Under the pieces are notes generated by a model. It had not been told where the DNA came from. It did no database searches and was given only the letters and a program-made list of their open reading frames with translations. 64,000 nt of DNA from Shewanella gelidimarina (GTDB lineage Bacteria > Pseudomonadota > Gammaproteobacteria > Enterobacterales > Shewanellaceae), in NCBI RefSeq assembly GCF_023283945.1, contig NZ_JAKIKW010000021.1, positions 1-64,000 on the forward strand, written 5' to 3'. The translations under genes and the position numbers were made by a program. Each line of letters opens with the position of its first letter. Positions within the stretch are counted from its first letter, which is position 1. This document shows positions 13,482-59,290 of this stretch, in pieces.

Positions 13482-13614
13482 TTACCCTTGACTCCTGAAG
13501 GAAAACGGGGCAATGCGTCACGGAATGACAAATAGTTAAGCGCTAAAATTCCATCGCTACATTTGCACACTGCCGCACTTCGAGATCTGCCCGCCGAAAT
13601 CATCGAAATCACTT

Positions 13615-13790
13615 TACGGGCCGGTCTCCGGACTTAGGTTCTATATCGATTTAAGTATCGATATGCGAATACAAGCTTTAATGCGCCTGTCTCTCACCAT
13701 TCACCGTTGCGGGGGCAGTGTCAGAATTTAACTGACTTCCCGATTATCCTTACTCAACATTTAAGCTGAAAGTTAAGGCACCAATAAAGT
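13615..13790 (-). ncRNA. cobalamin riboswitch upstream of btuB
   Basis: On the minus strand the B12 box AAGTCCGGAGACCGGCC lies at about 13635..13619. It is preceded by the core motif with CTGCCCCCGCAAC and a GGTGCC at the 5' end (13783..13778), all in the order of the Cobalamin (adenosylcobalamin/B12) family. It lies 134 nt before the btuB ATG, consistent with B12-dependent repression of receptor synthesis. Confidence 0.92.
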
Positions 13791-14109
13791 TGACTAGTTT
13801 GTTATTGTTAATCGTTGTTACACTGCAATAACCTTAGGTTACCGCTTTGTGCGCGCATTATAGGCGTCTATACGGTTAAATGTCTAACTTATCAAAAAGC
13901 GATTTGTTCTAGCTTAGATTACAAATATTCAACAGAGGATATCTGCAGATAACGAAAAGGGGCGGGCTTAACCAGAAATGTTCACTAATACTTTAGTCAG
14001 AGCCATTCATACTGAAGTCGAAAAGCGACAAATGGCTCAAACATCAGGTGGGACCTGATAATTGAAAAGCTAACCCCCAGCACAAAAGTACTACTGAGCA
14101 CCTAATGCG
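13791..14109. other. intergenic DNA with two hairpins
   Basis: No ORF. It holds an 8-bp inverted repeat GAGCCATT / AATGGCTC (14000-14007, 14031-14038), a 7-bp hairpin ATCAGGT-GGG-ACCTGAT (14043-14059) and the palindrome TATCTGCAGATA (13940-13951). The hairpins are 50-110 nt past the stop of the 14110 gene and could form its 3' end, but no T run follows. Confidence 0.4.
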
Positions 14110-29027: not shown

Positions 29028-30626
29028 ATGGCATATGATTCAGACTCAACACTCGATCTCTCCCGATACGCCTCACTCAATGATCTGATTGACCTTGCAA
29101 GTGCCCGATACGGTGATAAAGCCGCTTATTCCTGTTTAGGGAAAGAAACCACATTCAACGAGATTAACCATTCTTCACGCCAGTTTGCCGCTTACCTGCA
29201 ACAAGAAACAAATTTAGTACAGGGCGATAGAATTGCGATTCAACTGCCCAATATCACTCAGTTTGTGATTGCCGCTTATGGCGCCATTAAAGCAGGTATG
29301 GTGTTAGTTAATACCAACCCTTTGTATACCCCACGGGAGCTAATCCACCAATTCAATGACTCAGGCGCAAAAGCCCTAGTGGTGCTATCGGATCTGTTGC
29401 CAACATTGACTGAAGTGATTGCCAAAACAAGTATTGAAACGGTTATCTCCACCCATGCAATGGACTTGATTGCACCGCAACCGCAACCAGAAGTCCCCTT
29501 TGCAACCATCGCCTTTTGCGATGTGCTAAAAGCGGGTGAGTTACTGACATATGTGCCAGTGATTAGCGTGCCAGAACAGATTGCCGCGCTGCAATATACC
29601 GGCGGGACCACCGGATTATCAAAAGGGGCAATGTTAACCCACGGTAATTTACTCGCCAACGCCATGCAGATAAAATCGCGTATTGGCAGTCGCCTAGTTG
29701 AAGGTGAAGAGATTTTTGTCGCGCCGCTACCTGTGTACCATATCTACGCCTTCATGGTGAATTTAGTGCTTTATTACGAGCGTGGCGGTTGTTCTATATT
29801 GATCCCAAATCCACGCGACATTTCAGGATTGATCTCAGCACTGGCACAATATCCATTCACTGGGTTTGCGGGGCTCAACACCCTGTTTGTTGGGCTATGT
29901 CACCAACCGGAATTTAGGGCATTGGATTTTAGCCACTTAAAAGTAACCATCTCAGGAGGCACTGCGTTAACTCAAGCAGCGGCTTCGGTTTGGCAGCAAA
30001 CCACCGGCTGCACAATCTCTGAAGGTTACGGCTTATCGGAAACGTCACCGGTGGTGTCGCTCAATGCACCTGGACTCGAACAGCTCGGCACGATTGGCAA
30101 ACCCGTCCTTGGCACCTTGGTAAAAATTCTCGACATGGATGATAACGAAGTCGCCACAGGAGAAACCGGCGAACTTGCCGTCTTTGGCCCACAGGTGATG
30201 TTAGGTTATTGGAATAACCCAGAGGAAACGGCAAAAGTCATGACCAGCGAGGGTTACTTTAAAACCGGTGACATCGCCATTGCCACTGAAGACGGCTTCC
30301 ATAAAATTGTTGACCGTAAGAAAGACATGATTATCGTCTCTGGCTTTAACGTTTATCCAAACGAAGTCGAAGATGTACTGTCGAACCACGAAGCAATATT
30401 AGAATGCGCCGTGATTGGTATTGAAGACGATCATAGCGGTGAAGCGGTTAAAGCGGTTATCGTATTAAACGATATTCATGCCGATCATGAACAAGCTAAA
30501 GCCGCAATCGACAGTTACTGCCGCGAGCAGCTAACCGCCTATAAGATCCCAAAAGTGGTTATCTTTGTCGATGCACTGCCTAAATCTACAGTGGGTAAGA
30601 TATTACGCAGAGAATTGCGTAAGTAA
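29028..30626 (+). CDS. long-chain fatty-acid-CoA ligase (FadD-like)
   Basis: 532 aa ANL-superfamily adenylate-forming enzyme: ATP + fatty acid + CoA to acyl-CoA. Motifs: P-loop YTGGTTGLSKGAMLTH (about 190-205), EGYGLSETSPV (adenylate site, about 334), TGDIA (hinge region Asp near 421), the family VDRKKDMIIVSGFNVYPNEVE stretch around 430-450, and the catalytic Lys in STVGKILRRELR at the C-terminus. Slightly shorter than E. coli FadD (561 aa), lacking some N-terminal residues. Single gene with its own terminator; no beta-oxidation genes nearby. Confidence 0.88.
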   Translation: MAYDSDSTLDLSRYASLNDLIDLASARYGDKAAYSCLGKETTFNEINHSSRQFAAYLQQETNLVQGDRIAIQLPNITQFVIAAYGAIKAGMVLVNTNPLYTPRELIHQFNDSGAKALVVLSDLLPTLTEVIAKTSIETVISTHAMDLIAPQPQPEVPFATIAFCDVLKAGELLTYVPVISVPEQIAALQYTGGTTGLSKGAMLTHGNLLANAMQIKSRIGSRLVEGEEIFVAPLPVYHIYAFMVNLVLYYERGGCSILIPNPRDISGLISALAQYPFTGFAGLNTLFVGLCHQPEFRALDFSHLKVTISGGTALTQAAASVWQQTTGCTISEGYGLSETSPVVSLNAPGLEQLGTIGKPVLGTLVKILDMDDNEVATGETGELAVFGPQVMLGYWNNPEETAKVMTSEGYFKTGDIAIATEDGFHKIVDRKKDMIIVSGFNVYPNEVEDVLSNHEAILECAVIGIEDDHSGEAVKAVIVLNDIHADHEQAKAAIDSYCREQLTAYKIPKVVIFVDALPKSTVGKILRRELRK

Positions 30627-30794: not shown

Positions 30795-31055
30795 TTAGCT
30801 ATCAATTTTCTCGCAACACACATAGCAGTTGTCAGTTGGTAAACGATACTTAAAAAAACCAAGCATTATTTGGTGCTTTCCACAGTTTGGGCAGGCATAA
30901 ACAATCGCCTTTAATATCAAGTAAGCCCCTAGCGCCATGCCTACGATAAAAAATGAATTCATATAGTATGTGAGTTCGATAGGAATCATTTTGTACATTA
31001 CAGTGACAATTAATTGAACAATCAGCAGTAACTTAAATTTTTTAGCTCTGGTCAT
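30795..31055 (-). CDS. small membrane protein with C-terminal zinc ribbon
   Basis: 86 aa. Two TM helices (about 8-24 and 32-52) and then a four-Cys motif CPNCG...CYVCC (residues 55-81) that looks like a zinc ribbon facing the cytosol. No family recognised. Together with the next two minus-strand genes it forms a stretch of orphan, A/T-rich genes next to the repeat array. It may be a remnant or accessory gene; no function can be given. Confidence 0.55.
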   Translation of the reverse strand: MTRAKKFKLLLIVQLIVTVMYKMIPIELTYYMNSFFIVGMALGAYLILKAIVYACPNCGKHQIMLGFFKYRLPTDNCYVCCEKIDS

Positions 31056-31107
31056 TCCTTTGCCTTACTATGTAGAATTTACGCCAGTTAGGCTAAACTT
31101 ATTGCTT

Positions 31108-31560
31108 CTAGCGGCAACTCCTTGCTTCTCTATTAGGATCATGTGGCCGACTATTGTTATATGCATATGCCACATGATGCTTACCATTATCATCTAAGAT
31201 ATCGCACTTTGCCTTATATGGTTTGCCCAGTCCGGAGCGCCAATAATGATGCTTCTTTTCATATTCAGTTTCAAATAGCACGGTGAGTTCCACAGAAACT
31301 AGCCAAGCTTTGGGGATAGAGCCAGTGGTTAGGTGTGAGTCCAATCTATCTCGATAGGACTCAATTAGTGAATCAAACTCGTCTGTTTGAGGACTGATAT
31401 TCCCAGAAAGAAGATCAATCATAATCTCTTTTTTAGCATTATTCTCAACAAACCTGTGTAATGTTCCGATCCCCCAATAACCACCAATATCATTATTTCG
31501 GCTGCTAAATGAACCTATTAATCCACTAGCTATACTTCCTAGTTCATTTCTCCGAGCCAT
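31108..31560 (-). CDS. hypothetical protein
   Basis: 150 aa, soluble, no signal peptide. An N-terminal Gly/Ser/Asn-rich stretch (SIASGLIGSFSSRNNDIGGYWGIG) is followed by a helical, charged region and a C-terminus ending in RSCR. Not recognised. About 50 nt upstream of the zinc-ribbon gene on the same strand, so possibly co-transcribed. Confidence 0.5.
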   Translation of the reverse strand: MARRNELGSIASGLIGSFSSRNNDIGGYWGIGTLHRFVENNAKKEIMIDLLSGNISPQTDEFDSLIESYRDRLDSHLTTGSIPKAWLVSVELTVLFETEYEKKHHYWRSGLGKPYKAKCDILDDNGKHHVAYAYNNSRPHDPNREARSCR

Positions 31561-31682
31561 ATTATCTAGAAGACCTTAACACCCATTTAAGAGGTTGATG
31601 ACAGTTTGATAAAATGATGTGGCACTACTGCGAAACAACGTAAAATGTTCGCAGTCCCACTAGAAATTAGCCTTGGTGAATC

Positions 31683-32132
31683 TTAGTTCGGAGGCTCGTT
31701 TTGCATTTTAAGTAAAACCCACTTTATGGGGCTTCGAATAAATACCCAGCAGATAAATGCTACTAGTAGGCCAGAAAAGTAAGCACTTAGTGCTATCTGC
31801 TCATGGTAGTTAGCACCATCGACCTCAAGCTTTTTCAATAGGTTATTACCTTTAAGGTACTCCCCTTTTATTGATTTACCACGTATTTCATCACTGTACA
31901 ATTCGCAAAAATTGTATTTTTTAGTCATTAAATAGTAAGTGCCATTTTTTGAAAATTGAACTGAATAGGTACTAAATTTTCCATTGAGTTCACATGATAT
32001 AACGCTATTACTTAAATCTATTTCTTCGAAATTCTCACCTGACCAAATATGGACAAACCAAGCCGATACACTTAAAAGTATTACAGCTAAAATGACAATA
32101 TCAATTTTATGAGTAAGCCAAAATTTGTTCAT
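31683..32132 (-). CDS. hypothetical two-TM membrane protein
   Basis: 149 aa. TM helix 1 (about 10-29), an extracytoplasmic domain with two Cys (SCELNG, NFCELY) and a YxxxF-type beta pattern (about 35-110), and TM helix 2 (about 113-133). Resembles small inner-membrane proteins of unknown role. A/T-rich compared with the flanking core genes. Its stop is 123 nt before the 31108 gene start. Confidence 0.5.
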   Translation of the reverse strand: MNKFWLTHKIDIVILAVILLSVSAWFVHIWSGENFEEIDLSNSVISCELNGKFSTYSVQFSKNGTYYLMTKKYNFCELYSDEIRGKSIKGEYLKGNNLLKKLEVDGANYHEQIALSAYFSGLLVAFICWVFIRSPIKWVLLKMQNEPPN

Positions 32133-32390
32133 TTACCCACTCAGCATAACCGCTTATTCATTTATCGCTCGATAACGCACTCAGAAACAGTGTTAATTTC
32201 GTTCAACTTATCACTGCTAAGATATTGTTGTAAATATTTTATTTATGATGACACTCTCGATAACATAAGCTATTCCAGGCTAAAAAAGAGCTGGTTTTGA
32301 GTTATTTAGTGAGAACTACATTTATATGTAGTCTTTCAATAAACAACAAAATAATTGAATACATCACCTTCCTCGTTGGAAATGTCGCTT
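32133..32390. other. A/T-rich spacer before the repeat array
   Basis: No supported gene; a short plus-strand frame here is not gene-like. It includes the promoter region of the 31683 gene and the left edge of the repeats. Confidence 0.4.
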
Positions 32391-34152
32391 TCCAGAAATT
32401 TCGCCGGGGCACCGATGGTTTGACTCTAATGAAATCATGAGCAGGTACACGCGCTTTCCCCCTTGGCTCTATTCTTGATTACAAGAATGGGCGAAGCGCC
32501 ACGACCTTGGTCAAGCGCAGCTTGATGCACTTTTGGTTCCAATTGCCTGCGGCAAGCGTATGTGCAGACACTACTGAGGCTCGCTTTTCGCCATCCATGG
32601 CCGCTCTGCGGTTTCATCCCTGAAATCGAAGGCCTCAGCCGTATCTACACTGGTTTATAAAAGCGTAAGCTCTCAGCATTTGAGTTTTCCATTTAAAACA
32701 TAAAAGCCAACCGACTGCAGAAATAACAGAAAACACCAATTCCCCATCGAAGTTGCCGCAATGCGTTGGAAACTATTTATAAACCAGAGTCGCGTAAGTC
32801 CAGACATGGATGTCTGGCTAGCTTTCCGGGGCAGGCCGTTTCTTGGCATCCAGCCATCACGGCATTCTTAAATCCATATACATCAGATGTCCCATCGGAA
32901 GCGTTAGGCTATTTCAAATAAGTACGAGGAAGACAACTTCGTCGGGGCGTCATGGTGGATGCTAGGAGGATAGGACGAGCAGCCCTTCTTGCTCGACTCT
33001 TTACAACAGAATGGGCGAAGCGCCACGACCTTGGTCAAGCGCAGCTTGATGCACTTGTGGTTCCAATTGCCTGCGGCAAGCGTATGTGCAGACGCAACTG
33101 AGGCTCGCTGCTAGTACGTCCATGTAAGCTCAACGATGGCATCCATGCCATCGAAGGCCTCAGCCGTATCTACACCGGGTTAGAAAAGCACAATATTTCA
33201 GCTTCAATGCCCTTAATTTAAAAACACAAAAAGTCACAGTTCCGTAAAGCTAACAGAAAACACTAATCCCCATCGAAGTTGCCGAAATGCGTTGGAAACT
33301 CTTTATAAACCAGAGTCGTGTAAGTCCAGACATGGATGTCTGGCTAGCTTTCGGGGGGCAGGTCGTTCCTTGGCATCCATGCCACCACGACATTCGTAAG
33401 TCCATTTACATCAGATGCCCCATCGGAAGCGTTAGCGATTTATCCATAAGTATGAGGCCCGTATCTAATGCATGTAACTTCGTCGGGGCGTCATGGTGGA
33501 TGCAAGGAGGATAGGACGAGCAGTCCTTCTTGCTCGACTCTTTACAACAGAATGGGCGAAGCGCCACGACCTTGGTCAAGTGCAGCTTGATGCACTTGTG
33601 GTTCCAATTGCCTGCGGCAGGCGTATGTACAGACGCAACGAAGGCTCGCTGGGACTATTTATCAAAGAAAGGGCCCATGTAAGCTCAACGAAGACATCTG
33701 ACCTCCAAGGACGGAGGAAATGCCAAATTCTGTATGGAACAGAATTGGCACTGTTTTCGAAGGCCTCAGCCGCATCTACACTGGGTTATAAAAGCGCAAA
33801 CTCTCAGCATTTGAGTTTTCAATATTCAGATACTAAAGCCAACAACCAATTCAGAGCTGATTGGTTACACCAACTCCCCATCGGAGTTGCCGAAGTACGT
33901 TGAAGAAATAGCCGTAATGCCCACACAGACGTGGGCATAGCTTTCGCGGGACAGGCCGTTCCTTGGCATCCATGCCATCACGGCATTCGTAAATCCATTT
34001 ACATCAGATGTCCCATCGGAAGCATTAGGCTATTTCGAATAAGTATGAGGAAGACAACTTCGTCTGGGGCGCTGAGGGATTGACTCTTATGAAATCAAGA
34101 GCGGGGACAAGCGCTTGCCCCCTTGGCTCCGGTGTGGGCGAAGCGCCACGAC
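32391..34152. repeat. tandem non-coding repeat array, unit about 525-580 bp, three units plus partial ends
   Basis: Units start at the same motif, GAATGGGCGAAGCGCCACGA, at 32485, 33009 and 33550, with a partial copy at 34133; spacing is 524, 541 and 583 bp. A related segment (TGACTCT-ATGAAATCA ... CCCCCTTGGCTC) occurs at both ends (about 32421 and 34081). Within each unit are several hairpins, for example TCAAGC-GCA-GCTTGA at 32511, 33035 and 33576 and TTGCC-TGC-GGCAA at 32543 and 33067. The frames through it (for example 33287-33903) are not conserved between units and are not called as genes. No transposase, and no clear target-site duplication was seen. The nature of the element is unknown. 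Confidence 0.85.
32800..33938. repeat. covarying hairpin at the same place in each unit
   Basis: Unit 1 (32800-32817) and unit 2 (33326-33343): CCAGACAT-GG-ATGTCTGG. Unit 3 (33917-33938): ATGCCCAC-ACAGAC-GTGGGCAT. Flanks (GTAA before, TAGCTTTC after) are conserved while both arms change together, so the fold is kept and the sequence is not. Confidence 0.75.
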
Positions 34153-34199: not shown

Positions 34200-34712
34200 C
34201 TAAACCTGTTTAACCCAAATAATCTGCTCAACGCTAAACCCAAGCTGTTTAGCCTGCTCAGTAAACTGCTGTTTGAGCGCATCACTCACCTCTGGTGTAC
34301 GTGACAGAAACCAAAGATAATCACGGTTATAACTGGTAATAAAGGCATATTGGTAACCCTCTTTATCAAGCTCATACACCACGTATGAACCATAAAATGG
34401 CCCAAAGAAAGACACTTTTAAATAACCAATACTCTCATCATCAACAAAGAATGCTTTACCGTCAGCGCTATTCCAAATCTGCTCTTCGGTTTTAAACCCT
34501 CGATTGGTGACTTTAACGCCACCATCTTCACGCATCTCGTAGTTAGCGGTAACTTGCTCCATACCACGCTCAAAACTATGGTCAAGCCGCGCGATCTCAT
34601 ACCAAGTGCCTAAGTATTTAGGCAGTTCAAACTCACCGACAGGCTCAATGCCTTTTGGCAGACTAGTACACGCAGATAATAAAAAGACCGTTAACACTAA
34701 CCATAATCGCAT
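34200..34712 (-). CDS. blc: outer-membrane lipocalin Blc
   Basis: 170 aa. Lipoprotein signal ending LLSAC (Cys15). Lipocalin signature GTWYEIARLDHSFERG (about 31-46), then the beta-barrel with GFKTEEQIWNSADG and the C-terminal WFLSRTPEVSD motif usual in bacterial lipocalins. Binds lysophospholipids or similar hydrophobic ligands at the outer membrane in E. coli. Single gene next to the repeat array; start fixed by the signal peptide. Confidence 0.9.
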   Translation of the reverse strand: MRLWLVLTVFLLSACTSLPKGIEPVGEFELPKYLGTWYEIARLDHSFERGMEQVTANYEMREDGGVKVTNRGFKTEEQIWNSADGKAFFVDDESIGYLKVSFFGPFYGSYVVYELDKEGYQYAFITSYNRDYLWFLSRTPEVSDALKQQFTEQAKQLGFSVEQIIWVKQV

Positions 34713-59049: not shown

Positions 59050-59290
59050 GGTTAGGCGGCTGTTTGAAGAGGGTGCTTGGTATAGAACGTTATACACTTT
59101 ATTTTGCTCAGGCACCGTTTGATGCATTAGGGTCTGCACGCTTACAATGGCTCGCTGCAAACTCATCTATAGCGCTATCGGCAATGTCGAATGGTGTCGA
59201 ACAGAATTAGCTATCTTTATGATGGCCTCTGCCGCATCTGTATCGGCTTATAAAAGCGGAGCAACTTGGTGCTCAAGCAAACCAAGATGA
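59050..59290. repeat. degenerate copy of part of the 32.4-34.2 kb repeat
   Basis: Carries GATGGCCTCTGCCGCATCTG (59221-59240), then TATCGGCTTATAAAAGCGG. Compare GAAGGCCTCAGCCGTATCTA, CACTGGTTTATAAAAGCG of the array (32628-32665). The order of pieces (GATGCA, GGCTCGCTG, then this) also agrees. Decayed, so homology is judged by eye. Confidence 0.4.

Follow-up and report, generated by a model that had tools for sequence, protein, structure and literature searches.

RNA modules resembling TwoAYGGAY and CsrB probably bound exchangeable gene cassettes in Shewanella

The consensus derived by SELEX for the RNA-binding regulator CsrA is RUACARGGAUGU, with the GGA presented in a hairpin loop, and the selected ligands mostly have four base pairs or fewer (PMC7652899). 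In Shewanella oneidensis, CsrB1 and CsrB2 are expressed in a BarA/UvrY-dependent manner (PMC3171408). The TwoAYGGAY motif was tabulated in 2010 as probably an RNA and not cis-regulatory (PMC2864571), and its Rfam family (RF01731) belongs with CsrB to a single clan, CL00106. The non-coding repeat of Shewanella gelidimarina described here probably consists of RNA modules related to these families that bound exchangeable gene cassettes. Profile searches of the window, i.e. the whole 64,000-nt stretch analysed, place the array at 32369-34152, as three tandem A-B-C units with partial flanks in the order B'-C3, A-B-C1, A-B-C1, A-B-C3. The features at this site are as follows, with the basis of each in brackets.

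29028..30626, plus strand: AMP-dependent ligase, conserved left neighbour (ORFs, relatives compared)
30795..32132, minus strand: three ORFans of 86, 150 and 149 aa, possible cargo (ORF list)
32369..32410, plus strand: B' module, a short-stem variant of B and left array boundary (nhmmer profile match; the B'-C3 pairing recurs in other islands)
32407..32505, plus strand: C3 module, a hairpin chain with GGGCGAAGCGCCACGAC at its end (repeat families, profiles)
32534..32665, functional strand minus: A module of unit 1, a three-way junction with two GGA-loop hairpins (profile, covariation; covariance model R2 match at C21:32537-32659, minus)
32740..32949, plus strand: B module of unit 1, TwoAYGGAY-like, holding a nested S (profile, covariation)
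32836..32886, plus strand: S mini-element, a double hairpin in the B loop of unit 1, at GG^ATG (covariance model R1; empty and filled loops compared)
32965..33029, plus strand: C1 module of unit 1 (profile)
33057..33190, functional strand minus: A module of unit 2 (profile; R2 match of 132.8 bits at 33061-33184, minus)
33267..33490, plus strand: B module of unit 2 (profile; sub-threshold TwoAYGGAY match of 25.0 bits at 33280-33480)
33363..33414, plus strand: S mini-element in B of unit 2 (R1)
33506..33570, plus strand: C1 module of unit 2 (profile)
33598..33797, functional strand minus: A module of unit 3, lengthened by an S nested in it (profile)
33698..33748, minus strand: S mini-element in the A loop of unit 3, reversed relative to the S in B (R1)
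33875..34068, plus strand: B module of unit 3 (profile)
33956..34007, plus strand: S mini-element in B of unit 3 (R1)
34067..34152, plus strand: C3 module, right array boundary, some 48 bp from where blc ends (profile)
34200..34712, minus strand: blc (lipocalin), conserved convergent right neighbour (family match, relatives compared)

An earlier, sequence-only reading had described a repeat at 32391-34152 built of three units of 524-583 bp without a shared reading frame. Its right end holds and its left end moves out to the B' module at 32369. The three units are borne out by start-to-start spacings of 524 and 541 for a 176-nt family (units 2 and 3 sharing 96% identity), 528 and 593 for a 95-nt family, and 524, 541 and 582 for the four copies of a terminal hairpin, and the 20-mer that had been reported recurs at 32485, 33009 and 33550. 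The spacings stand, while the implied homogeneous unit does not, as each unit is composed of modules A, B or B', and C with nested inserts of 51-52 nt. The ORF list confirms that no reading frame is common to the units, as a known protein repeat would have; the sole ORF of at least 80 aa in the array lies in unit 3 (33493-33903, plus). No Rfam family matched the array at its gathering score, and relaxing the search to E values of 5 gave only chance-level matches. None of the four outcomes named in advance as counting against the repeat, namely a decayed gene, a named IS or MITE, a lack of other copies and a lack of covariation, was found.

A single unit used as query gave 81 matches in the 5-Mb genome, merging to 37 islands of which the array is one. 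Of 35 other Shewanella genomes, 32 gave matches, and 24 further genera yielded two weak cases; the own-genome and within-genus numbers put the repeat far from chance. An exact pattern of the B module, searched in a species-genome collection, returned only Shewanella among the matches listed (89 of 89 stretches), mostly from marine species. A covariance model of A recovered the structure more widely, in 46 of the 198 genomes searched and in 15 of 79 genera within the order, frequently with at least 17 matches per genome; in distant copies the loops are retained, whereas the stems have changed in most of their letters. There were no matches in plasmids or phages by blastn in distant mode, and the two viral contigs sharing an exact 19-mer of B contained no modules by profile. 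The repeat appears to be undescribed in open-access PMC papers, which is weak evidence for absence. In one genome of another family (locus L341 of G153, 1188-2157), six A-type structures lie on both strands within 1 kb; the Yersinia sRNA family Ysr224 matches the antisense strand of one of these copies at 44 bits and, on that basis, may be a relative. Within the window, a decayed second A module that has lost its GGA loops lies remote from the array (59144-59258, plus, E 3.6e-7).

Across islands and loci the profiles reveal a common grammar, in which A is followed by B or the short B' and then by C1, C2 or C3, with rare departures from this order or orientation; the C modules are chains of GC hairpins. 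Poly-C tracts of about 10-14 C occur in the A-B' spacer of two islands (L062 near 5240, L087 near 4930). To determine which strand carries the structure, 81 A and 107 B copies were folded on both strands. The ratio of G-U to A-C in paired columns was 250:43 on the minus strand and 116:123 on the plus strand for A, 332:91 on plus and 167:213 on minus for B, and 125:10 on plus for C2, an asymmetry that identifies minus as the functional strand of A and plus as that of B and C2. Both A and B follow one plan of an outer stem, an inner stem and a three-way junction bearing two hairpins with CANGGAUG-type loops, followed by further small hairpins; the inner stem of B was taken from the larger fold.

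Covariation in A amounted to 118 cells changed on both sides, compared with 36.5 +/- 5.1 in shuffles, and a score of 0.468, compared with at most 0.10 in slid controls; the corresponding values for B were 138, 51.0 +/- 6.6, 0.466 and at most 0.08, the slid controls scoring 0.05-0.10 overall. A exceeded all 500 shuffles in every measure and B did so for cells paired, both-side-changed cells and score, but not for two measures counting pairs or types. The array is a real, strongly covarying structured element, and the suggestion of a structured-RNA array made from the letters alone gains support from covariation above shuffled and slid controls, from the strand asymmetry and from a weak match of B to TwoAYGGAY. 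For a role in chromosome organisation, which had been suggested alongside, nothing was found in support.

The conserved loops resemble those of CsrA targets. B copies carried on average 2.00 GGA triplets in hairpin loops on the plus strand, compared with 0.37 in shuffles and 0.00 on the minus strand, and A copies 1.32 on the minus strand, compared with 0.27. The motif CA(N)GGA[ACU]G occurred 1.93 times per sequence in B (plus) and 1.85 times in A (minus), compared with fewer than 0.1 in shuffles, and both features were rare on the non-functional strand of either module. In alignments of A (minus) and B (plus), the GGA of the CANGGAUG-type loops is nearly invariant while the stems covary. The array in the window holds nine CA(N)GGA[ACT]G sites with paired flanks and, as in RNAs of CsrB type, multiple GGA hairpin loops. 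The genome encodes CsrA, and its own CsrB, at C5:117693-117974 and outside the islands, has the same loops as A and B. The hairpin loops of the repeat look like CsrA binding sites, with stems often longer than those of the SELEX ligands. A second CsrB-like match of 46.9 bits lies beside the first (L319:865-1170, G000 C5), an arrangement like csrB1/csrB2 of S. oneidensis.

The covariance model RF00018 matched C5:117693-117974 and, weakly, C1:8569 in the own genome, and none of the islands. A signal for RF01731 emerged only in a genome-wide search with that family: on the functional strand, B modules scored up to 38.1 bits in the own genome (25.0 bits for unit 2 in the window), short of the gathering score of 43 bits, which was exceeded in 3 of the 30 genomes searched. 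A (minus) and B (plus) nevertheless each show the defining anatomy of TwoAYGGAY, two AYGGAY-type terminal loops in one branched structure, and we infer that the modules are of the TwoAYGGAY/CsrB kind, with own-genome scores below the curated limit for formal membership of RF01731.

With A functional on the minus strand and B-C on the plus strand, the two ends of a unit face outward from the spacer between them. In the window this spacer is 75-83 bp of AT-rich sequence, and the array consists of three tandem, cargo-less composite units, each with its A and B-C ends outward. In the set of 89 Shewanella loci, the spacing between A and the first B downstream was bimodal, being either 75-83 bp or 0.8-3.9 kb with genes, with few values between; inverted B ends enclose 0.6-2.1 kb, so that cargo between ends spans 0.6-3.9 kb overall, usually of one or few accessory genes and often a single one. 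Among adjacent A/B ends 0.3-4 kb apart, counted over the 89 loci, the own-genome islands and the orthologous regions fetched, 41 pairs faced outward, 2 faced inward and 14 pointed in one direction, whereas outward and inward pairs would be equally frequent by chance (p about 2e-10); the loci were gathered via matches to A or B and are therefore enriched for islands.

The cargo, some of it defence-like, includes two KAP NTPases matching the PADLOC candidate PDC-S20, two CAP12/Pycsar-type TIR proteins, one further TIR, a HEPN protein, an HNH-like protein, an S41 peptidase, DUF4238, DUF5694, LysE and a beta-lactamase-family protein, and many cargo proteins have no family. Two cargo genes (L214:1701-2693 and L263:129-1766) match PHROGs 4780 and 13369, of unknown function, over their N-terminal parts and are possible defence candidates. 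Orthologous loci carry different cargo from one species to the next. Five unrelated cargos occupy the interval from a permease gene to fbp in five genomes (L250, L251, L259, L260, L266), within the same rcC-rcB and B-C ends; the left flank is common to all five at 83-93% identity and the right flank to four, L250 stopping there at a contig end. Downstream of fbp, 19 of the 30 genomes examined have an end that faces this gene from no more than 0.7 kb away, and since 12 of these ends are B and 7 are A, A and B-C appear interchangeable; in the own genome, C2 lies at 0.4 kb and A at 1.2 kb from fbp. Between a GNAT and a 241-aa gene, five species carry, respectively, an MCP, a 732-aa protein, three ORFans, a 291-aa ORFan and nothing. 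The GNAT gene itself, at L063, was rejected as cargo, being present in 6 of 6 relatives examined.

At the window site, nine other species have about 80-220 bp between the AMP-ligase and blc, free of modules and ORFans, where S. gelidimarina has three ORFans and the array and one further genome (G077) a pilin-like gene and a decayed A fragment. The three ORFans have no Pfam match above cut-off and none in PHROGs, and no left end was recognisable beyond them. Elsewhere in the window, a cobalamin riboswitch (RF00174, 77 bits) lies at 13602-13800 on the minus strand. The sequence-only reading had also proposed a mobile non-autonomous element, and this proposal survives in part: the dispersed islands, the element-free site in nine species and the differing cargo agree with it, whereas neither a target duplication nor a transposase turned up, and Y1 is absent from the own genome.

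Movement by an integron integrase, with A and B as divergent attC-type sites, is highly improbable. Small accessory genes with structured ends, integrase genes in the own and many related genomes, and GCGTTAGGC within B would fit such a scheme, but the ends come in outward pairs rather than as one site per cassette in head-to-tail arrays, 13 kb including the own integrase gene contain no A, B or C modules, and four genomes with modules (G002, G005, G010, G011) have no integron integrase above cut-off. The integron was accordingly rejected as mover, as integrase presence does not track the modules and none lie near the own integrase.

Position relative to cargo genes raises the alternative that the ends are only 3' stabilisers or terminators of the mRNAs of cargo and neighbours, the GGA loops being incidental and without a CsrA role. 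The median distance to an end is 82 bp for cargo stop codons, most of which lie at 22-200 bp, compared with 225 bp for start codons (p=0.011, n=19), the gene adjoining a C end is convergent in 24 of 36 cases by eye, and GC hairpin chains such as the C modules would suit this function. However, the terminator scan of the array gave two sites, at chance level, and neither termination nor stabilisation would need two CANGGAUG loops per copy while stems vary freely, making this account unlikely.

The nested S is a double-hairpin mini-element of 51-52 nt within A and B loops. Alignment of filled and empty loops places its insertion exactly at GG^A without target duplication, a case of very small elements set in hairpin loops with single-base precision. 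Covariance model R1, which mixes two S subfamilies and has lost the first stem, was still used to find copies and gave about 50 in the own genome, mostly within islands, of which the window holds four. S also occurs outside A and B, where other palindromes carry it in their loops, for example at CTGAATGG^ATTCAG and CTAAATGG^ATTTAG. An S-like element sits at GTCTGG^AACT in each of three tandem copies of another palindromic repeat (L184:2850-3200; G000 C19:15850-16200), and others lie at the apex of CTAAAT-GG-ATTTAG-type palindromes (L182 and L183; G000 C9:31312 and C28:11667), which represent a different dispersed repeat family with common flanks. Insertion at GG^A in many loops, including those outside A and B, could mean that the modules are selfish hairpins whose GGA loop is retained as an insertion site for S and its relatives without host function; this is very doubtful, as it leaves unexplained the conserved three-way junction, the outward orientation around cargo and the loops in common with the own CsrB.

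The same insertions, which by their exact placement in palindrome loops and lack of target duplication resemble single-strand insertion, also bear on a reading of the repeat as REP/BIME-like palindromes or MITEs moved by an ssDNA-hairpin transposase (RAYT, IS200/IS605 type), with the loops as DNA recognition or target sites. The repeats are dispersed, intergenic and hairpin-rich, and some Shewanella are known to carry GTAG REPs (PMC3733652). Nonetheless, no Y1_Tnp (PF01797) match is present in the own genome, only 1 of 30 Y1 loci of relatives has a nearby A module (L145, G006, 817-931), the units are not visibly framed by a GTAG or CGTC tag, and the excess of G-U over A-C and the one-strand conservation of GGA point to RNA, leaving this reading quite improbable. 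With no Y1 at home and one A near Y1 elsewhere, RAYT/IS200 was rejected as mover in the own genome, and both the strand asymmetry and the GGA/CsrA pattern make a DNA-level triloop element less likely. As regards MITE traits, no duplication was seen by eye at 13 loci; inverted rcBC...BC ends occur, and many units are A...BC.

The preferred reading of TwoAYGGAY/CsrB-like modules bounding exchangeable cassettes is held with more confidence for anatomy, structure and orientation around cargo than for CsrA binding and for how cargo would be exchanged. Of its three steps, the most secure is that the ends probably act as RNA of the TwoAYGGAY/CsrB kind; the second is that, judging by sequence resemblance, the GGA loops may bind CsrA; and the least secure is that cargo may be exchanged by recombination within common ends. 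Given CsrA binding, an end downstream of a cargo gene would form a CsrA-binding 3' module of the cargo transcript, and the whole set of ends may titrate CsrA. Tandem arrays such as that in the window could arise from unequal recombination following cargo loss. Several observations count against the preferred reading: the array shows no sigma-70-like promoter and only a chance-level number of terminator-like sites, the RF01731 scores of the own genome stay below the gathering score, the stems are often longer than those of the SELEX ligands, nested S breaks up the loops expected to bind CsrA, the window site lacks a recognisable left end beyond its ORFans, and an end lying upstream of cargo runs antisense to the cargo gene, yet its structure is conserved as well.

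A broader and more tentative possibility, thought rather less likely to hold than to fail, is a mobile cassette class spread in marine gammaproteobacteria of the order, in which accessory and defence genes lie between outward CsrA-binding RNA structures that control the cargo post-transcriptionally and serve as exchange sites, with hairpin parasites inserting at the CsrA loop; this would explain the role of TwoAYGGAY. Relatives of TwoAYGGAY occurring in dozens per genome, mostly outward and on either side of swappable accessory genes, suggest a testable role for this motif. If confirmed, the arrangement would link a global RNA-binding regulator to newly acquired genes, some defence-like, and help to mark gene hotspots and new defence genes, in Shewanella as well as in related genera.

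Compared with known systems, REP/BIME sequences of the GTAG and CGTC families (PMC3733652) are similarly intergenic, mosaic, hairpin-rich and dispersed, but the present units are about 350-600 bp long with three-way junctions, no visible tag, no resident Y1 and a one-strand G-U signal. Integron cassettes (attC) likewise have small accessory genes, a structured element near the stop codon and some defence-like cargo, whereas here structured ends stand on both sides, face outward and are dispersed, also in genomes without an integron integrase. CsrB/RsmB-type sRNAs (RF00018) share the many GGA loops of CAGGAUG type, but the islands have no RF00018 match and no visible promoter, and are multi-copy, dispersed and beside variable genes. 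Relative to TwoAYGGAY (RF01731; Weinberg et al. 2010, PMC2864571), B in the own genome scores under the 43-bit gathering limit, and tandem composite arrays, divergent A/B pairing, flanking of cargo and nested S are undescribed in searchable papers; the likeness lies in two hairpins with AYGGAY-type loops, a branched fold and the CsrB clan.
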